Below, piece by piece: positions 49,282-60,162 of a stretch of DNA of 64,000 bases (positions are counted from its first letter, which is position 1; each line of letters opens with the position of its first letter). A program made the translations under genes and the position numbers. The notes below the pieces were generated by a model that saw only the letters and a list, made by a program, of their open reading frames with translations, was not told the origin of the DNA and did not search any database. Source of the stretch: Candidatus Aminicenantota bacterium (GTDB taxonomy: Bacteria > Acidobacteriota > Aminicenantia > Aminicenantales > Aminicenantaceae). Where the stretch lies: assembly GCA_016927475.1 (NCBI GenBank), contig JAFGMO010000028.1, positions 123,096-187,095 of the forward strand. The letters run 5' to 3'.

Positions 49282-49556
49282 ACCTTCCTTTTTTCAAATC
49301 TTCGTTTCTTTTTGAAAGCACCTGAACAACATTTTTCGGCTATTATAATATAAAAATGTACCTGCAACCAGCTTTAGGCGGATCATCTCAAAGGAAAGAA
49401 CCATAGTTCATCAAATTTCGTATAATATTAACAAGATTAATGCGATATTTCTTATGAAGAAAAAAATCTATTATTTTTTCCCATCATCCGGTAGCATTTA
49501 TTCCCCCTTTATGTGTTCTATCATTGGAAACGAAAATTGAAAAGTGGAGATTTGCC

Positions 49557-51830
49557 ATGAAAAAACATTTGATATTTATACTCACCATCTTTTTAGCCAC
49601 AAGCTGTTTTTTCCCTCTTTTAGCCTCGGGACGAGAAAATCAGATAACCACAAAAAGATACGCTATTGCCGTCGGAGCCAATGATGGAGGCCCAAACCGG
49701 ATAAAACTTCTTTATGCTGTATCGGATGCCCGTTCCTTGATCGATCTTTTTCAAGAAATGGGCGGTGTTTTGGATAATGACAGTTATATCCTTTCCGATC
49801 CGGACAAAAAGACTTTTTTTACCGTTCTGGAAAAAGTCAAAAATCAGGTTTCAACAGCCCGGTCCGAGTACGGCCGAGTGGAGTTTCTTTTTTATTATTC
49901 CGGACACTCGGACGACGAAAACATACTCATTGGCAATGAGAAAATCCCCTACCGTGATTTGCGGACTGAAATACATAGCATTAATGCTGACCTTCACATC
50001 GCTGTTCTCGATTCCTGCGCATCAGGCGCTTTCGCCCGAATCAAAGGAGGCAAAAAAAAGTCTCCCTTCCTAATGGACGCCGCCTACAGCATGAAAGGTT
50101 ATGCCTACATGACTTCCAGCTCTTCGAATGAATCCTCTCAAGAATCCGACCACTTAAAAGCCTCATTCTTCACTCATAATCTTATTGCCGGTATGCGCGG
50201 GGCTGCGGATTCCAATCAGGACGGCCGGGTCACTTTGAACGAAGCTTATCAGTATGCTTTTAACGAAACCCTCACTCAAACGGAAAAAACCATGAGCGGC
50301 CCTCAGCATCCCAACTACAACATCCAGATGATCGGAACAGGCGATGTGGTCATGACGGATATCCGTAAAAGTTCGGTTGTTCTCACCATCGATAAAAATA
50401 TCAGCGGACGTATCTTCATTCATGATCAAAACAACGTCCTAGTTATTGAACTCAACAAACCGCAGGGACGACCCATTGAGCTGGGACTGGCGGAAGGGAA
50501 ATACAGAATAACAACCGTCAGCGAAGGATCCATATACGAATCACGGATTGAGCTCCGTCCAGGAGAAGATTTCTTCTTGGCTGCAGATCTTCTCCAAGAA
50601 ACGGAAAAAATTCCCGCCACGCCCCGCGGTATAAAAAGCAGTCCTCAGAGGATTTACAACGACCAGAACCTGGTGGATGTCCCCTTCAATTTTTCCTTTA
50701 TTTCCTTTCCCCCTATGAATTCCCGGTCCGTTCACCACGCTTCTTTTGCACTGATCTCATCCCACTGTGCTTATCTCGAAGGAATCGGCCTGAGTGCATG
50801 CTTTCAATTTGTCGACAAAGACGCCTCATTCGCACAGTTTGCTGGCCTGGCAAATATAACCGGAAGGAATATGCAATACATCCAGATGGCCGGGACATTC
50901 AACATCACGGGCCGTCTGATGGACGGCGTTCAGGCAGCCGGCGCTTTCAACTACACTCATGAACGTGTTACCGGAATCCAGATGGCCGGAGCGTTTAATT
51001 ACACCCGGCTTTTGGAAGGAATCCAGACGGCGGGAGGATTAAACATTGTTTTGGGGCATGTGTCGGGAGGACAGGTTTCAGGGGGCTTGAACGTCTCTGC
51101 CTCCCTATCGGGAGGGCAGGTTACCGGCGGCGGCAACATCGTTGCGGGCGATGTCACAGGCTTCCAAATTGGAGGAGGATTTAACCTGGCTCGCAATGTT
51201 TGCGGTGTTCAACTGGGAACGCTCAATATAGGCCGGGATATCGAAGGTGCACAGATCGGAGTCATCAATATCGGCCGCATCGTCAAAGGATTCCAATTGG
51301 GTGTGATCAACATTTCTCAAAGAATGGATCATACCTCTCTGGGTCTTATCAATTTCATCGCCCAGGGAAAAACCCAGTTCGATATATGGGGAGATGAGCT
51401 GGGATTCTTGAACTTCGGTTTTCAGCACGGAAACGGCCGTTTTTACAATCTTTATACGGCCGGTTTCAACAGCGCATTCAACCGTTATCTTTTCGGCTGG
51501 GGATACGGATACAACTGGAATCAACAAAAAAGTTTTTTCATCAGCAGCGATGTTATGGCAAAATCCGTTTTTCCCAAGTACGATTGGTCATGGCCGGCCC
51601 TTTGGATTACTCTGCGCCTTTCGCTGAATGTGTCCCTTTCGAAAGGTTTTTCCCTTTTCGGAGGAGGCTCCTATAATTATTTTTATACATCGAACGAGGT
51701 CACCCTGGATGAACCGTTCCATGGAAGCTTACTGAGTTGGAGTTCAGACAGGCACCGTCACTGGCTTGGCCTTTTTGCGGGAATAAAAATTCTTCTTTCA
51801 GACCGGACTTTACGAAAAGATTTACCCTGA
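49557..51830 (+). CDS. Caspase-family (metacaspase-like) secreted protein with C-terminal GxQ.AG..N repeat array
   Basis: LFYYSGHSDD (His) and VLDSCASGAF (Cys) dyad; about 11 tandem repeats of roughly 14-17 aa between aa ~420 and ~620; N-terminal signal-like segment. Confidence 0.82.
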   Translation: MKKHLIFILTIFLATSCFFPLLASGRENQITTKRYAIAVGANDGGPNRIKLLYAVSDARSLIDLFQEMGGVLDNDSYILSDPDKKTFFTVLEKVKNQVSTARSEYGRVEFLFYYSGHSDDENILIGNEKIPYRDLRTEIHSINADLHIAVLDSCASGAFARIKGGKKKSPFLMDAAYSMKGYAYMTSSSSNESSQESDHLKASFFTHNLIAGMRGAADSNQDGRVTLNEAYQYAFNETLTQTEKTMSGPQHPNYNIQMIGTGDVVMTDIRKSSVVLTIDKNISGRIFIHDQNNVLVIELNKPQGRPIELGLAEGKYRITTVSEGSIYESRIELRPGEDFFLAADLLQETEKIPATPRGIKSSPQRIYNDQNLVDVPFNFSFISFPPMNSRSVHHASFALISSHCAYLEGIGLSACFQFVDKDASFAQFAGLANITGRNMQYIQMAGTFNITGRLMDGVQAAGAFNYTHERVTGIQMAGAFNYTRLLEGIQTAGGLNIVLGHVSGGQVSGGLNVSASLSGGQVTGGGNIVAGDVTGFQIGGGFNLARNVCGVQLGTLNIGRDIEGAQIGVINIGRIVKGFQLGVINISQRMDHTSLGLINFIAQGKTQFDIWGDELGFLNFGFQHGNGRFYNLYTAGFNSAFNRYLFGWGYGYNWNQQKSFFISSDVMAKSVFPKYDWSWPALWITLRLSLNVSLSKGFSLFGGGSYNYFYTSNEVTLDEPFHGSLLSWSSDRHRHWLGLFAGIKILLSDRTLRKDLP

Positions 51831-52430: not shown

Positions 52431-52829
52431 ATTTCATCCCCCGATAAAAGATAAAGATACGCTTAAGAAAGGCTGGCAACCTAACAAAAAAAAATCCTTT
52501 ACGGCATAGTATCCGCTGTTCGACCCTGCTTAATTACGCTTTATCAACCACAGCAGGCCTTATTATACACTGTTTGAAAAATATGTCATTCCTTACTTAC
52601 TCACCATTCACCTTCGTGCAATGTGCCCAGGTACATTAGTGTGATGAACCTTAAAACCACTCAAAAATGTAGCTATTTTTAAATAATAATAATTATTGAT
52701 TTTCTAACCCAAGAGCATTAGAATAATTTGTTATGCTGCTGGATTCAGAAAATTCGTTTCTTAAGTAAAAACCGGATTCCATAACGATTGACAATTTGGA
52801 ACCTGTAACTATAATAAACGGTTTATTAC

Positions 52830-54125
52830 ATGATTTTTACAAAAAAGAAGCCAAAAAAAAGAGTCCTGGTAATCGGACTGGATGGTGTCCCCTATTTCCT
52901 GTTGAAAGATCTGGCACAACGGGGTGTTATGCCCTATGTTGCCTCTCTCATCGATGAAGGTTTTCTTCACAAGATGAAAGCAAGCCTTCCCGAGATATCC
53001 TCGGTAAGCTGGACAAATTTCATGACCGGATCCAATCCCGGGCAGCATGGGATCTTCGGCTTTACGGATTTCAAACCGGATTCTTATGATATCCGTTTTC
53101 CAAACTTTCTTGATGTGAAAACGGAAACATTTTGGGATATCCTCGGCCGTGAGAACAAAAAATGCATCATTATCAATCAACCGAGCACTTATCCCGCCCG
53201 CAGAATTAACGGCATTTTGATAGCAGGTTTTGTCGCTCTAGAGCTTTCCAAAGCACTTTACCCGCTTTCTTATAAGGCAGCATTGGATAAAATCCCTTAC
53301 CAGATTGACATTGATACCATGAAAGCCCGGGAAAACCATGAATTCCTCTGGACGGACTTGATACGAACACTTTATGGACGTCAAAAAGCCATGGAGCTGC
53401 TCTGGAATGAAGACTGGGATTACTTTGAATTTGTCATCACGGGAACAGACCGTCTGCAGCATTATCTGTGGAACGCCTACGAAGACACATCACACAACCA
53501 CCATGAACGCTTTTTCGATTATTACCAAAAAGTCGACAACGTTATCGGAAAAATCGTTTCTTCCTTTCGCAAGCTGTCCAAAGACAATGGGCGGTTGTAC
53601 CTCCTTTCCGATCATGGTTTCACCGGTATCAAACAAGAAGTCTACCTCAATACCTGGCTCATCAAGAAAGGATATCTCGAAACGCCAAATTCCTCTCCAA
53701 AAAGCTTATCCGACCTCTCCCCTTCTTCTCTCGCTTTTGCCTTGGATCCCAACCGGATTTATATCAACCGAAAAGACAGGTTTCCCAAAGGCTGTGTCAA
53801 GCCGGATGAAATATTTTCCTTGAAACGCGAGCTTACCGAAAAGCTGGAAAAATTAGAATACGAAGGTTCGAAAGTTGTCCATAAAGTATTCGATACGCAG
53901 GAAATATATTCAGGCCCGCAATCCGAGCACGGACCGGACCTCATCGTTCTTTCGGAAAAAGGTTTTGATATGAAAGGCTCGATCAAAAAGAATGAAATCT
54001 TCGGGCGTTCAGACCTCCAGGGCATGCACACCTGGGACGACGCTTTTTTCTGGGCCGAAAACGAATATGGCGCCGATCTTTCCATTCAGGATCTGGCAAA
54101 AATTCTTTTGGAACAGTTTTCATGA
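52830..54125 (+). CDS. Alkaline-phosphatase-superfamily protein (type I phosphodiesterase-like), cytoplasmic-type
   Basis: VLVIGLDGVPYFLL, SSVSWTNFMTGSNPGQHGIFGF, LLSDHGF; overlaps the next gene by 4 bp. Confidence 0.88.
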   Translation: MIFTKKKPKKRVLVIGLDGVPYFLLKDLAQRGVMPYVASLIDEGFLHKMKASLPEISSVSWTNFMTGSNPGQHGIFGFTDFKPDSYDIRFPNFLDVKTETFWDILGRENKKCIIINQPSTYPARRINGILIAGFVALELSKALYPLSYKAALDKIPYQIDIDTMKARENHEFLWTDLIRTLYGRQKAMELLWNEDWDYFEFVITGTDRLQHYLWNAYEDTSHNHHERFFDYYQKVDNVIGKIVSSFRKLSKDNGRLYLLSDHGFTGIKQEVYLNTWLIKKGYLETPNSSPKSLSDLSPSSLAFALDPNRIYINRKDRFPKGCVKPDEIFSLKRELTEKLEKLEYEGSKVVHKVFDTQEIYSGPQSEHGPDLIVLSEKGFDMKGSIKKNEIFGRSDLQGMHTWDDAFFWAENEYGADLSIQDLAKILLEQFS

Positions 54126-56278
54126 ATCCGACAGATAAAAACACACGAAACAAAACAGTCCTCAGCGTTATTCTTTTAACGGCCTGCATGAGCATACCTC
54201 TGCAGGCTTATATCGGACCGGGGGCCGGATTTGCTTTTCTCTCCTCTTTTCTGGTTCTTTTTCTGACTTTTTTTCTGGCTCTTTTTTCTTTTCTTTCCTG
54301 GCCCTTCAGGTTGATCGGACGGCTCATCAAAGGACAGAAAGCCTACAAAAAAAGCAACATCAAAAAACTGGTCATCATCGGCCTGGATGGTTTAGAACCC
54401 ACACTTGTTGAAAAATACATGGACCAGGGAAAACTTCCGCATTTATCGGAGCTCAAAAAGGAAGGATCCTATTCACGCTTGGAAACGACGATCCCCTCCA
54501 TATCTCCGGTTGCCTGGTCCTCATTCATGACAGGCTGCCATCCGGCTAAACATAATATTTTCGATTTTTTAAGCCGCGATCCCAAGACATATCTTCCGGA
54601 CCTATCATCAGCACGGATAGGCCAACCAAAACGCACCCTATCGCTTGGAAAATTCAGGATTCCGCTTTCAAAACCGGAAATAAAAGGACTCAGAAAAAGC
54701 GTTCCTTTCTGGAAGATACTGGGAGATAACGGGATTTTCAGCACTATTTTAAAAATTCCAATCACGTTTCCTCCGGAGAAATTCAAAGGACACCTCATCT
54801 CAGGGATGTGCGCGCCCGATCTGAAAGGAAGCCAGGGCACTTTTTCTTTTTATACGTCCGATCCAAAGCAGGTCGTCAACCGGGAAGGGGGTGTTATCAT
54901 CCCGGTCTCCCAGAATGGAAATATCATCAAGACATTTATCTCCGGCCCGGAAAACACCCTTCTCAAAAACCCGAAGGAATTAACACTGCCACTGGAAATA
55001 GACATTGATAAAAATCATAATCAGGCAGTTCTCAAAACGGACTCCCAAAAGATCTGTTTGAAGCAGGGTATGTTCTCGGAGTGGATAAAACTAACTTTCA
55101 AACCCGGACTAGGTATAAAAATAAGATCAGTCTGCCGGTTTTATATCACAAGCCTGGAACCTCACTTTCAAATGTACATGACACCGCTCAATATCGACCC
55201 TGAAAAACCTGCCCTCCCCATCTCTCATCCTTTTATCTATTCGGTCTACCTGGGGAAATTACTGGGAAGCTTCACCACATTAGGAGAAGCAGACGACACT
55301 TGGGCTCTGAATGAAGGTATTCTTTCCGAAGAATCCTTCCTCAAGCTGACCTATGATACCCACTCTGAAACAGAGGCCATGCTGTTCAACGCGCTGGATA
55401 AAACAAAAAGAGGTGTTGTCGCCTGTTGGTTCCAAGCAACGGACAGCCTTCAACACATGTTCTTTCGCTACCTGGACAAAACACATCCGGCTCTAAAATC
55501 CGGACAAACCAATAAAAGCGAAAAAGTCATCGAAGAACTCTACATAAAAATGGATGAACTGGTTGGCCGTGTCAGACAAAAGATAGACCGCAAATCGGTC
55601 TTGATCGTCATGTCCGACCATGGATTCAAGCTTTTTCGACGCGGCGTCAACCTCAATTCCTGGCTGTATCTCAACGGCTATCTTCACCTGAAAGAAGGGA
55701 AAAAAACCAGTAGGGAATGGTTCAAGGATGTGGACTGGACACGGACACGGGCATACGGCCTGGGATTGGGAGGTATTTATCTGAACATGAAAGGACGTGA
55801 AGCCCAAGGGATCGTCTCCCCAGGAGACGAAACAGCGGTCCTGAAAAAAGAGCTTTTCTCCAGGCTTTCGGGCCTTCGCGATGAAAAGGAAGACAAGGTC
55901 GCCATCAATAAAATTTACGACAAGGACAAACTGCCTCCGGGACCTTACAAAGATAACTGCCCGGATTTTATCGTCGGTTACAACGAAGGATACCGTGTTT
56001 CCTGGGATTCCGTAACCGGTAAAGTTAACGACACTCTTTTTGAAGACAACACAAAGGCCTGGAGCGGGGATCACTGCATCGATCCCCTTGTCGTTCCCGG
56101 GATATTTTTTTCCAACCAGGCTCTAAAGATAGAAAAGCCGTCCATCGTCGATATCGCTCCCACGGCCCTCGATCTTTTCGGCCTCAAACCGCCCAAACAT
56201 ATGGACGGCCGAATGATGATGGAGCCGGGGCTTTTTGATCCCGGAATAAAAAAAGATTCAAAGGAAAAAGAACAATGA
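54122..56278 (+). CDS. Alkaline-phosphatase-superfamily protein with N-terminal membrane segment
   Basis: AYIGPGAGFAFLSSFLVLFLTFFLALFSFLSWPFR then LVIIGLDGLEPTLV, SPVAWSSFMTGCHPAKHNIFDF, MSDHGF, SGDHCID. Confidence 0.88.
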   Translation: MNPTDKNTRNKTVLSVILLTACMSIPLQAYIGPGAGFAFLSSFLVLFLTFFLALFSFLSWPFRLIGRLIKGQKAYKKSNIKKLVIIGLDGLEPTLVEKYMDQGKLPHLSELKKEGSYSRLETTIPSISPVAWSSFMTGCHPAKHNIFDFLSRDPKTYLPDLSSARIGQPKRTLSLGKFRIPLSKPEIKGLRKSVPFWKILGDNGIFSTILKIPITFPPEKFKGHLISGMCAPDLKGSQGTFSFYTSDPKQVVNREGGVIIPVSQNGNIIKTFISGPENTLLKNPKELTLPLEIDIDKNHNQAVLKTDSQKICLKQGMFSEWIKLTFKPGLGIKIRSVCRFYITSLEPHFQMYMTPLNIDPEKPALPISHPFIYSVYLGKLLGSFTTLGEADDTWALNEGILSEESFLKLTYDTHSETEAMLFNALDKTKRGVVACWFQATDSLQHMFFRYLDKTHPALKSGQTNKSEKVIEELYIKMDELVGRVRQKIDRKSVLIVMSDHGFKLFRRGVNLNSWLYLNGYLHLKEGKKTSREWFKDVDWTRTRAYGLGLGGIYLNMKGREAQGIVSPGDETAVLKKELFSRLSGLRDEKEDKVAINKIYDKDKLPPGPYKDNCPDFIVGYNEGYRVSWDSVTGKVNDTLFEDNTKAWSGDHCIDPLVVPGIFFSNQALKIEKPSIVDIAPTALDLFGLKPPKHMDGRMMMEPGLFDPGIKKDSKEKEQ

Positions 56279-58257
56279 CTTCCATAAAAAGAAGAGATTT
56301 TATAAAGATGGGACTTACAGCAGGATCCCTTATGGCCCTAGGTGACGGACCCGGTATGATAACCAAGGTTTTTGGTAAAACCGAATCCCCGGTCCGCATG
56401 ATCATCCTTGGAATGGACGGCATGGACCCCCACTTGACCGATGTTATGATCAAACAGGGCAAGCTTCCCGCATTCGCCAAACTCAGAGCCATGGGAGATT
56501 TTATGTCCCTGAGAACAAGTTTACCACCACAGAGTCCTGTAGCCTGGTCCAATTTTATGACGGGGATGAATCCCGGCGGTCACGGCATATTCGATTTCGT
56601 CCACCGTGATCCTTCGAATTACACACCCACTTCATCCTCAGCGGAAACCAGCGGGGCCAGCCGCACACTGAACATCGGAAATCTTGTCCTGCCTTTATCC
56701 GGTGGAAAGGTCCAGCCCATCCGGAAAGGAAAAACTTTCTGGGAGCACCTTGAGGACCATGATATTCCGGCCACGGTTTTTAAGATGCCGGGAAATTATC
56801 CGCCCGCCCCCACCAATCAAAGAACAATCTCAGGAATGGGAACACCGGACCTGACCGGAAATTTTCGAAATTTTAACTATTACACGACTGAAGCGAGCGA
56901 GATGAAACCGGATATCGGCGGCGGTGAGATTCACGAAGTTTATGTTATCGGCAACAGGGTCGACGCCACTCTTCCGGGACCTGAAAATTCCTTCAAAAAA
57001 AGCCGGCCCAGGGCGACCATCGATTTTAAGGTTTTCCTTGATCCCGTCTACCCCGTGGCCAAGATTGCCATCCAGGACCACGAGATCATTCTGAACGAGG
57101 GGGAATGGAGCGACTGGATGCATATACATTTTGACATGATCCCCACCCAGAGCGCCGTCGGCATCTGCCGTTTTTACCTCAAACAGGTCCATCCTCATTT
57201 CAAGCTCTATGTCTCCCCCATCAATCTCGACCCGGCAAAACCCGCCATGCCCATTTCCACTCCAGAGAGTTATGCCCTTGAGTTGGCTGACAAGTTCGGT
57301 CCTTTTTACACGCAGGGACTCCCCGCAGACACCAATGCCCTGGACCACGGGGTGTTTACTGAAGAAGAATTTTTATCTCAAGATGATCTTGTACTTGAAG
57401 AACGTATCCGCATGTTCGACTACGAGCTCAAAAAATTCGAAACAGGCCTTCTCTTTTACTACCTTTCCAGCACGGACCAGCGCCAGCATATGTTCTGGCG
57501 TCTCATCGATAAAAAACACCCCTTTTATGATGAGAAGCTTGCCGCCAAGCTGGGAAACAGCATCGAAAACATTTATATCGAAGCGGATAAGCTTCTCGAC
57601 AAGGCCCTGTCCAAAGTCGACAAAAATACCATTATTTTTGTAATGTCCGACCATGGATTTTCCCCATTCAGACGCACCTTCAACCTCAACTCCTGGCTGA
57701 AACAAGCCGGATATCACACACTCATCGATGAATGGGCTCCCAGCGAAGCGTTTTTCCTGAATACGGACTGGTCGCGAACCCGGGCCTATTCTTACGGCAT
57801 AAACAGCCTTTATATCAATCAGCGGGGCCGTGAAGCACAGGGAATCGTCGCAGCCGGCCCGGAGAAAAAAGCTCTTATTCGGGAAATCATAACAAAACTT
57901 GAGTCCTACCGGGATCCTGAAACCGGGGAAATACCGGTTCTGAAAGCTTACGCCGCAACGGATGTATACACCGGTGAGGTTTTAGCCTCAGCTCCTGATA
58001 TTATCCTTGGCTTCAACAACGGTTACCGCATGGCCTGGGCTTCACCTCTAGGACGGATAACCGATAACATCATGGGCAATAACATGGAAAAATGGAGCGG
58101 GGACCACTGCATGGATCCCACCGTCGTTCCCGGAATCCTCTTCACCAACCGGAAGATCAGGGCCGAATCCCCTTCTCTCGTCGACCTGACGGCCACCGTA
58201 CTCAATACATTTGACATCAAACCCCCCAAAGAAACGCAAGGAAAACCGGTCTTCTAA
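56275..58257 (+). CDS. Alkaline-phosphatase-superfamily protein with twin-arginine-like N-terminus
   Basis: KRRDFIKMGLTAGSLMALGDGPG, MIILGMDGMDPHLT, SPVAWSNFMTGMNPGGHGIFDF, MSDHGF, SGDHCMD. Confidence 0.88.
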   Translation: MTSIKRRDFIKMGLTAGSLMALGDGPGMITKVFGKTESPVRMIILGMDGMDPHLTDVMIKQGKLPAFAKLRAMGDFMSLRTSLPPQSPVAWSNFMTGMNPGGHGIFDFVHRDPSNYTPTSSSAETSGASRTLNIGNLVLPLSGGKVQPIRKGKTFWEHLEDHDIPATVFKMPGNYPPAPTNQRTISGMGTPDLTGNFRNFNYYTTEASEMKPDIGGGEIHEVYVIGNRVDATLPGPENSFKKSRPRATIDFKVFLDPVYPVAKIAIQDHEIILNEGEWSDWMHIHFDMIPTQSAVGICRFYLKQVHPHFKLYVSPINLDPAKPAMPISTPESYALELADKFGPFYTQGLPADTNALDHGVFTEEEFLSQDDLVLEERIRMFDYELKKFETGLLFYYLSSTDQRQHMFWRLIDKKHPFYDEKLAAKLGNSIENIYIEADKLLDKALSKVDKNTIIFVMSDHGFSPFRRTFNLNSWLKQAGYHTLIDEWAPSEAFFLNTDWSRTRAYSYGINSLYINQRGREAQGIVAAGPEKKALIREIITKLESYRDPETGEIPVLKAYAATDVYTGEVLASAPDIILGFNNGYRMAWASPLGRITDNIMGNNMEKWSGDHCMDPTVVPGILFTNRKIRAESPSLVDLTATVLNTFDIKPPKETQGKPVF

Positions 58258-58268
58258 AGGAGAATTAA

Positions 58269-58460
58269 ATGGGAAAAGTCAAAATCAAACTGGAAAAAGA
58301 GCTGATGGATAAAGTAAAAAAATTTGCTGACATGTCGGGATATTCTTCTCCCGAAGAATTCATCAGCCACTGTCTCGAAAAGGAGATTTCCTCTCTGGAA
58401 GGATCGGAATCGGAGGAAGAAATCAAGAAAAAACTCAAAGGACTTGGCTATATTTCTTAG
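58269..58460 (+). CDS. Small ribbon-helix-helix-like protein
   Basis: GKVKIKLEKELMDKVKKFADMSGYSSPEEFISHCLEKEIS...; preceded by AAGGAG. Confidence 0.55.
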   Translation: MGKVKIKLEKELMDKVKKFADMSGYSSPEEFISHCLEKEISSLEGSESEEEIKKKLKGLGYIS

Positions 58461-58537
58461 CCAAAACATTACGGTTCAGCCCGGACTACCGACACACGAG
58501 AAAATGCGTTCGGGAATGAAACCGAAGGTGAAGCATC

Positions 58538-59386
58538 ATGTGGGTTTTTAATACCGTCATCAATAAAATATTTGACATCTTCTTTTTCCCATTCCGCAAA
58601 TTAAGCCCCTGGTTTGCCATGATTTTTATATCCCTTCTCACAGCGGCTCTCATGCTTATTGTATTTCGCCTGACATCAAACCAGAAAGGCATCAAGCGGG
58701 TGAAGAACCTCATCAAAGCTCACCTCCTGGAAATACGGCTTTACAAAGGTAACATGTCGGTATCCTTCAAAGCCCAGGGTAAAATCCTTTTGACGAACCT
58801 GAAGTACATCAGCTACACGCTAAAACCCCTTTTGATCATGATCGTTCCGTTGGTTTTGATACTTATTCAACTCAATCTCTGGTTTGGCCATCATTCCCTG
58901 GAACCGGGCGCTCAAACCATACTCAAGGTCCATCTCCGCCAGAAAATTGATCCTTTTGCCGCCGACCTAAAAATCCTTCCTTCGCCGGTTTTCGAGGTTG
59001 AAACACATCCCCTTCGTATATCTGAAAATAATGAAATCGACTGGCGTATCCGAGCCGATAAAGAAGGACATCATAACCTTAATCTGATGGTCGACGGCCG
59101 TCCTATTTCCAAATCTTTAATCGTGGGATCCAATTCCCTGGCAAAGGTTTCCACTTCCCGAACCAATAATAAGTTTTTTGATTTGTTGTTCAATCCAGGC
59201 GAATCCCCCATTCCCGGAGACACACCCATTTCCTCTATAGAGATACAATATCCGGAAAAAAAGTTTGATCTTTTCGGCTGGAAAATCGGTACTTTTATCG
59301 GTGTACCAGGCTGGCTGTGGATCTATTTTGTCCTGTCCATTATATTCGCTTTTGCATTTAAGGGATTATTCAAGGTGGACATATAA
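58538..59386 (+). CDS. Membrane protein with EMC3/DUF106 (Oxa1 superfamily)-like topology
   Basis: TM1, basic helical linker (SNQKGIKRVKNLIKAHLLEIRLYKGN), TM2 (LKPLLIMIVPLVLILIQLNLWFG), soluble domain, C-terminal TM (GWLWIYFVLSIIFAFAFKGLF). Confidence 0.5.
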   Translation: MWVFNTVINKIFDIFFFPFRKLSPWFAMIFISLLTAALMLIVFRLTSNQKGIKRVKNLIKAHLLEIRLYKGNMSVSFKAQGKILLTNLKYISYTLKPLLIMIVPLVLILIQLNLWFGHHSLEPGAQTILKVHLRQKIDPFAADLKILPSPVFEVETHPLRISENNEIDWRIRADKEGHHNLNLMVDGRPISKSLIVGSNSLAKVSTSRTNNKFFDLLFNPGESPIPGDTPISSIEIQYPEKKFDLFGWKIGTFIGVPGWLWIYFVLSIIFAFAFKGLFKVDI

Positions 59387-60162
59387 CCTGGACGGCAGAT
59401 ATACAATAGCCGGGGAGGTCTTTCTTCGGGTTTTTCCAGAGTTTCCCCATCTCTTTTGCAAAAAACAAAATCCGATTTATCCAAAGCATACTCAATCTCG
59501 CTGGTTTTATATCCTCTCTCAACATGTTTCTCTCCAAATTTTCGGTAGCTATCCTTTTCCTTAAAAAAACCGGTCATCCGGCAAGTGGCCCTACCGCTTT
59601 TTTTCTCAAATGTATTTTCCATAATCAGTGTATACTTCTGATTCTCGATCGTTTTTGTGCTGTTCCACCTGTCCTCAAGACCCTCATAAGTGTTCATATC
59701 GAAAAAAAAGATGCTTTGATCATGCATCCAGGACCGGACGTTTTTGAAGAGACGCTCCAATTCAGCTTTCCTGGTGATGTAATTGAGGCTGTCAAACATA
59801 CAGGAAATGATATCGAATGGCTTTCGAAAAGCCAGATACCGAATATCAGCATTGATCAGACACGACTGCGGGGCGTTAATACGAGCAAAGCCAATTTGAT
59901 AGGGTGAACGGTCAACTCCGACTCCAATAAATGACCTTCGGTAAATGCGCCTCAACAAAAAACCGGTTCCACAGCACAAATCGAGCCATGTTTTTGCACC
60001 GGGGTATTCCTTTTTGACGGTTTTCAGCAAAAATGGAGTCGTGTTTTCCTCAAAATCACCCCATTTTTCGTTATAAATAAAGGCAAAATCCTTCCCATAG
60101 GGAATACATTCCTTCTGTATTCCTCTCCTCCGCCACAGCATATCCTGTATCCGTATTCTCAC
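59323..60162 (-). CDS. Class I SAM-dependent methyltransferase
   Basis: WLDLCCGTGFLLRRIYRRSFIGVGVDRSPYQIGFAR, FDIISCMFDSLNYIT. Confidence 0.88.
   Translation of the reverse strand: MRIRIQDMLWRRRGIQKECIPYGKDFAFIYNEKWGDFEENTTPFLLKTVKKEYPGAKTWLDLCCGTGFLLRRIYRRSFIGVGVDRSPYQIGFARINAPQSCLINADIRYLAFRKPFDIISCMFDSLNYITRKAELERLFKNVRSWMHDQSIFFFDMNTYEGLEDRWNSTKTIENQKYTLIMENTFEKKSGRATCRMTGFFKEKDSYRKFGEKHVERGYKTSEIEYALDKSDFVFCKRDGETLEKPEERPPRLLYICRPGYMSTLNNPLNAKANIMDRTK

Follow-up and report, generated by a model that had tools for sequence, protein, structure and literature searches.

A conserved cassette of NPP-type enzymes and an Oxa1-superfamily protein, probably connected with sulfation, in Acidobacteriota and other bacterial phyla

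A 64,000-nucleotide (nt) stretch of the Candidatus Aminicenantota bacterium assembly GCA_016927475.1 (contig JAFGMO010000028.1, positions 123,096 to 187,095 of the forward strand; hereafter the window) carries five consecutive genes, named here P1 to P5 in order, that encode three enzymes of the alkaline phosphatase (AP) superfamily, a small ribbon-helix-helix (RHH)-like protein and a protein with three transmembrane (TM) segments. The assembly comprises 5.0 Mb in 104 contigs. All five open reading frames (ORFs) proposed in an initial annotation of the window were found as proposed, together with the ATGA overlaps that couple P1 to P2 (54122) and P2 to P3 (56275), and the five genes are confirmed as one unit (Table 1). 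Most of this unit recurs as a cassette across bacterial phyla, and it is likely to be connected with sulfation.

Proteins encoded by the unit

P1, P2 and P3 match the Phosphodiest family (PF01663) well over its cut-off of 23 bits (133, 114 and 103 bits; E = 2.4e-38, 1.5e-32 and 2.6e-29, respectively), in agreement with their first description as phosphodiesterase-like. The metal ligands of nucleotide pyrophosphatases/phosphodiesterases (NPP; D, D..H, DH, H) and a Ser nucleophile are present and aligned in all three, and are invariant or near-invariant in alignments. Each enzyme has a nucleophile stretch, TDxxxH and SDHG in addition to GLDG (P1 and P2) or GMDG (P3). GDHC, reported earlier as SGDHC in the second and third enzymes, is found in P2 and P3, and GMHT is the P1 equivalent. 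The nucleophile region proposed initially stands, but its catalytic residue is refined: because T90 of Xac NPP aligns with the Ser of PPQSPVAW in P3, the putative nucleophile is the Ser of SPVAW/SSVSW, not the T of FMTG, which gives Ser87 for P3 and the Ser aligned with it for P1 and P2. The predicted structure of P3 (predicted local distance difference test (pLDDT) score 91) has Xac NPP (Foldseek E = 1.2e-10, TM-score 0.64 by target) and ENPP1 as its closest solved folds. P1–P3 are like the NPP/ENPP branch of PF01663 in core fold, two-metal ligands and nucleophile position, but differ from it in having Ser as the nucleophile, a long beta insert in P2 and P3, and a pair of paralogues of which one is membrane-anchored and predicted to be cytoplasmic and the other exported; identity in structural alignments is about 10-12%. 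P2 and P3 were also considered as S1 sulfatases and rejected, as both fall under the PF00884 cut-off of 25 bits (13.3 and 20.5 bits) and no formylglycine motif (C/S-x-P-x-R) was found in their nucleophile stretch.

The predicted locations of the three enzymes agree with those described initially. P1 has no signal and is probably cytosolic. P2 has a hydrophobic N terminus and a TM segment, and Y-x-GPG-x-G lies between two hydrophobic segments in 89/93 P2 homologues. Because the stretch after TM2 is rich in K and R (mean K+R 7.5 versus D+E 2.3 among P2 homologues), the positive-inside rule probably places the AP domain of P2 on the cytoplasmic face of the inner membrane. The leader of P3 (RRDFIK) resembles a twin-arginine translocation (Tat) signal, with a PF10518 E-value of only 0.13, and P3 is taken as exported because Tat-like or lipobox-like leaders were recognized by simple motif in 81 of the 116 homologues counted. 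The earlier idea of a single pathway whose related AP enzymes occupy different compartments holds with a correction, in that the pair straddling the membrane is predicted to be P2 inside and P3 outside, P1 being variable. P2 and P3 of the window share 38% identity and the beta insert. Across phyla, each family scores far higher with its own profile than with the other's, so their duplication predates the spread of the cassette. Among named relatives, those nearest to P3 belong to Candidatus Aminicenantes, Acidobacteriota.

The multi-TM protein P5 had been listed as a generic accessory; profiles and topology instead point to a bacterial DUF106/EMC3-type member of the Oxa1 superfamily with a periplasmic beta domain. 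The profile of the P5 family aligns with MJ0480 (Ylp1; PDB 5c8j) at E = 6.3e-9 with TM1–coil–TM2 in register, and TM3 is also in register in a weak alignment. EMC3_TMCO1 (PF01956) is matched by 17 of 45 family members (best E = 3.5e-5) and not by the window's P5 sequence by itself; its matches among 14 control genomes were in archaea only. A phylogenetic study treats DUF106 as archaeal and as a relative of EMC3 (PMC8887752). The predicted structure of P5 (pLDDT 95.6) combines long helices with an immunoglobulin (Ig)-like beta domain, and its helices (residues 24-46, 49-68, 73-116 and 258-274) form a three-TM core in which a helical hairpin on the cytoplasmic side joins TM1 to TM2. P5 is like DUF106/EMC3/TMCO1 proteins in its TM1–cytoplasmic coil–TM2 plus TM3 register and differs from them in being bacterial, in having an Ig/filamin-like domain in the periplasm between TM2 and TM3, and in its operonic association with AP enzymes. 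The possibility that P5 is the cell's YidC was rejected, as PF02096 finds one YidC locus in the genome, separate from P5, and lists no P5 family member as matching.

P4 is RHH-like, as first noted, but its 15 bits against PF01402 (RHH_1) lie below the 20.5-bit cut-off; the related RHH2 family reaches 20.0 bits. A search for an RHH operator upstream of the unit gave nothing convincing. The C terminus LxGLGY[IL] is present in 110/110 P4 homologues. Among 1538 called ORFs in the fetched loci, 119 end in L..LGY[ILVMF], mostly P4, versus 0 for four scrambled patterns. Since the tail also ends APS kinases (CysC; APS, adenosine 5'-phosphosulfate), CysD, a DUF2061 protein, RHH2, sulfatases and one P3, it is a terminal element shared by proteins connected with sulfate, and it may serve docking. 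A strict tie of the tail to the cassette was rejected, as tailed CysC occurs without P2–P5. In the window's genome, the tail also ends two proteins that resemble sulfatases (ELKSLGYIR at L206, G000:C68; KLKALGYIK at L207, G000:C89).

Conservation and association with sulfate activation genes

A search of 199 genomes of the Acidobacteriota phylum found P5 in 52, and at 38 of these P5 loci the genes again stand as P2-P3-P4-P5, whether preceded by P1 or not. A cross-phylum scan made with the P3 alignment gave 80 loci, most with the same cassette, labelled Acidobacteriota, Desulfobacterota-type, Nitrospira-type, Dadabacteria, Poribacteria, KSB1, Tritonobacter, Planctomycetota (including Scalindua), Omnitrophota, Armatimonadetes, Zixibacteria, Sumerlaeota and others. 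Taxon names are the record titles of metagenome bins, by which the cassette spans ~15 phyla; genes were called as ORFs, and the two locus sets overlap in some genomes (for example, L043/L090, L049/L106 and L079/L125). Among the 93 loci with room (4.6 kb or more of sequence 5' of P5), P2 is found at 92, P3 at 92, P4 at 90 and all three at 88. The P5-fetched loci with room, a set free of P3 bias (n = 35), have P2, P3 and P4 at 34 each. Chance co-location is rejected by these counts (88/93 and 34/35), and the neighbourhood suggested by the single locus is clearly retained in other genomes. P1 lies near P5 at 45 of the 93 loci and is an optional, variable member; the core is P2-P3-P4-P5. Permuted orders (3-4-5-2, seen in Terriglobia-type loci, 2-4-5-3 and 3-2-4-5) retain every member, and intergenic gaps are short (medians -4, 16 and 20 nt). 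We note that L150:7771-9813 and the next ORF form a tandem P3 pair in an otherwise complete cassette, and that P3-like enzymes without P5 in the fetched stretch (L117, L131, L152, L157 and L159) are possibly solitary paralogues. In a Nitrospiraceae bin, DprE1/DprE2-like, HAD and UbiA-like genes that, read by eye, resemble the decaprenyl-phosphoryl-arabinose pathway come after the cassette (L128:10925-14515). No description of this gene combination was found in the open-access literature searched.

In many lineages outside the window's class, the neighbours of the cassette are sulfate activation and sulfotransferase genes of the 3'-phosphoadenosine 5'-phosphosulfate (PAPS) pathway. Such genes adjoin it in other Acidobacteriota, Planctomycetota, Omnitrophota, Armatimonadetes, Tritonobacter and Zixibacteria. 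CysD-CysN lies beside the cassette at five loci (L044, L046, L057, L135 and L141), Sat and/or CysC at nine (L050, L056, L057, L059, L062, L070, L143, L147 and L155), a CysQ-like phosphatase at two (L050 and L056) and a ~200-aa Sulfotransfer_3 protein at about 16, the APS kinase, ATP sulfurylase and Sulfotransfer_3 identities being confirmed by Pfam. At L059 the order is RHH2, Sat, CysC, P1, P2, P3, P4, P5. The initial annotation had suggested a pathway acting perhaps on a lipid or glycan phosphoester; these neighbours favour PAPS-dependent sulfation over an unspecified phosphoester. Published PAPS-dependent sulfation loci (Sat/CysDN, CysC, sulfotransferase and 3'-phosphoadenosine 5'-phosphate (PAP) phosphatase), as known for bacterial sulfated capsules (PMC11641403, PMC11766843), comprise the same kinds of genes as flank many cassettes; no published locus containing P2–P5 was found in the open-access literature searched.

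Among the 199 phylum genomes, the small sulfotransferase is present in 28/52 cassette-positive versus 8/147 cassette-negative genomes, and APS kinase in 49/52 versus 60/147 (outside the window's class, 29/32 versus 60/146), all of which are presence/absence counts that ignore phylogeny. Physical proximity is independent of these counts yet also shared by related genomes; the small sulfotransferase lies within 16 kb of P5 in 19 of its 28 carriers.

A further AP-superfamily enzyme outside the cassette, AP460, also occurs with sulfate activation genes. In the window's genome (L203:6013-9635, G000:C27), this 465-aa enzyme, with Thr at the nucleophile position, is part of an operon of a tailed RHH gene, Sat, AP460 and CysC, with genes for UDP-sugar enzymes and a sulfotransferase-like gene as neighbours; the small sulfotransferase and a second APS kinase are encoded elsewhere. 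Three genomes without P5 have an AP460-CysC-PHP-P1 operon, whose PHP protein is closest to 3',5'-nucleoside bisphosphate phosphatase, under that model's cut-off. We know of no role of AP460 in sulfate activation. In the second APS kinase homologue of the window's genome (L202:2619-3227, G000:C53) the P-loop is altered (GLPFSGKKK) and the C-terminal tail reads LQDLGHI; its neighbours are the gene of a DASS-family anion transporter and genes resembling those for polysaccharide export.

Other features of the window

Consensus scans place a promoter in front of P1 and a terminator-like hairpin behind P5 (Table 1). Because the total counts of both scans were close to shuffled expectation, only the exact 12/12 promoter match has some weight. 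An RNA element was rejected, as no Rfam family matched in the window, and so was an anti-phage defence system, as P1–P5 have no PADLOC match. Upstream of the unit, the window encodes a 768-aa protein (49524-51830) whose N-terminal caspase domain is close to the EACC1-associated type and whose C-terminal part has surface-repeat-like matches.

Table 1. Features of the P1–P5 unit, in window coordinates.
Feature	Coordinates	Strand	Description
Promoter TTGACA-16-TATAAT	52788..52815	+	Sigma-70-type, 12/12 consensus match; P1 start codon 14 nt on; consensus scan only
P1	52830..54125	+	431 aa; AP-superfamily enzyme of NPP type, soluble and probably cytosolic; fifth cassette gene, optional
P2	54122..56278	+	718 aa; signal/TM1, AYIGPGAG, TM2, K/R-rich stretch, AP domain with beta insert
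AYIGPGAG motif of P2	54206..54229	+	Between the two N-terminal hydrophobic segments; kept in 89/93
P3	56275..58257	+	660 aa; P2 paralogue, taken as exported; same beta insert in AP domain
P3 Ser87 codon	56533..56535	+	Putative catalytic nucleophile, PPQSPVAW; invariant in alignments
P4	58269..58460	+	63 aa; RHH-like; C-terminal tail ...KKLKGLGYIS
KKLKGLGYIS tail codons of P4	58428..58457	+	Invariant C-terminal tail
P5	58538..59386	+	282 aa; 3-TM, Oxa1-superfamily (DUF106/EMC3/TMCO1-like) by profiles; Ig/filamin-like periplasmic domain between TM2 and TM3
Terminator-like hairpin with T-rich tail	59410..59429	+	Weak; directly after P5; consensus scan only

Proposed mechanism and competing explanations

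Our working hypothesis, which we regard as plausible and a little short of probable, is that the cassette and the PAPS pathway make or process a sulfated cell-envelope molecule by a mechanism operating on both faces of the inner membrane; the product would most likely be a lipid-linked or surface glycan. The sequences themselves establish the linkage of the genes, the enzyme class with its intact active sites, the invariant P4 tail, the genomic tie to sulfate activation and a sulfotransferase and, by profiles and topology, an Oxa1-type membrane protein; the roles set out next are inferred from these. The core P2-P3-P4-P5, with P1 as an optional soluble member in the cytosol, would form an inner-membrane module cooperating with the cell's PAPS pathway. 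P2 at the inner face and P3 at the outer face would represent one metallo-phospho/sulfoesterase or transferase in two versions, which share a type of substrate and reach it from opposite sides of the membrane. Taken by itself, this two-face mechanism is more tentative, possible but on the doubtful side. P5 would offer a hydrophilic path through the membrane, either to the substrate or to a TM segment of a partner protein, and P4 would dock cytosolic enzymes via its C-terminal LGYI tail. Lipid scrambling by Oxa1-type insertases, seen both in vitro and in simulation (PMC10491306), makes a path for lipid head groups via P5 plausible. In the most specific form of the mechanism, a DUF106/EMC3-type protein would move a sulfated lipid-linked intermediate or donor between paralogous AP-fold transferases on opposite faces, with the small protein as organizer and its LGYI tail as a docking code that APS kinases and sulfatases also carry; so detailed a machine is unlikely.

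Several observations weigh against a sulfation module of this kind. Cassettes of the window's own class have no sulfation gene next to them, and the window's genome carries its sulfation genes on other contigs. Two sites have other contexts when read by eye, an exopolysaccharide cluster (L118) and a decaprenyl-arabinose-type cluster (L128). Besides the disregard of phylogeny in the genome counts, tailed CysC is also found in genomes without P2–P5, and Ser-type NPP-like enzymes usually act on phosphoesters. Finally, a whole-chain Foldseek search of P5, dominated by its Ig-like domain, gave Ig-like matches only, none at E <0.001; as no Oxa1 core was found, the assignment of P5 rests on profiles and topology.

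Some of the same evidence would fit a cassette that adds phosphate-containing groups to envelope glycans or lipids in the manner of phosphoethanolamine or phosphoglycerol transferases, the sulfation genes being merely co-located for the same surface polymer. The NPP-type active site with its Ser nucleophile and two-metal ligand set, the phosphodiesterases as closest folds, and the polysaccharide clusters that hold some cassettes (L118 and L128) all point this way. EptA, LtaS and the glycosylphosphatidylinositol (GPI) ethanolamine-phosphate transferases have the AP fold and attach groups to lipids or glycans of the envelope. However, P1–P3 are without the multi-TM regions of these enzymes, and the AP domain of P2 is seemingly cytoplasmic whereas known transferases are periplasmic. 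The link to the PAPS pathway, moreover, is specific and recurrent in separate lineages, and includes genes directly upstream of P1 or P2; we consider phosphate-group transfer somewhat unlikely. We give the same weight to a reading in which P5 is dedicated to the membrane insertion or chaperoning of P2 or of a partner, so that P2 and P3 would be clients of P5 and not the two ends of a substrate path. Its Oxa1-superfamily assignment, the unusual conserved AYIGPGAG–TM hairpin of P2 and the presence of P2 at 92/93 P5 loci agree with such a role, but the genome already has a canonical YidC, P5 is no more tightly linked to P2 than to P4 or to exported P3, and its conserved periplasmic domain has no obvious need in an insertase.

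Two further explanations place the enzymes elsewhere in sulfur metabolism. P1–P3 might hydrolyse or recycle APS, PAPS or PAP and so control the sulfo donor, given that NPP relatives cleave nucleotide phosphodiesters and that P1 and AP460 adjoin Sat, CysC and PAP phosphatases. This is quite improbable with P3 exported to where PAPS is not known to occur and with CysQ- or PHP-type PAP phosphatases already in these operons, and it leaves P5 unexplained. Sulfate-ester catabolism through sulfatase pathways, with P4 as a regulator, is the least probable of these explanations: LGY-tailed sulfatases are common in these genomes and lie near some cassettes, but the neighbours (Sat, CysC, CysDN, sulfotransferase and PAP phosphatase) are biosynthetic.

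If cooperation of the cassette with the PAPS pathway in envelope sulfation is correct, it would provide a function for a gene block in perhaps 15 phyla, mostly with few or no genetic systems. It would also give a DUF106/EMC3-type Oxa1-superfamily protein a place in bacteria beyond the role of YidC, and would point to a widespread, unrecognized envelope sulfation pathway with a C-terminal tail common to its unrelated enzymes.

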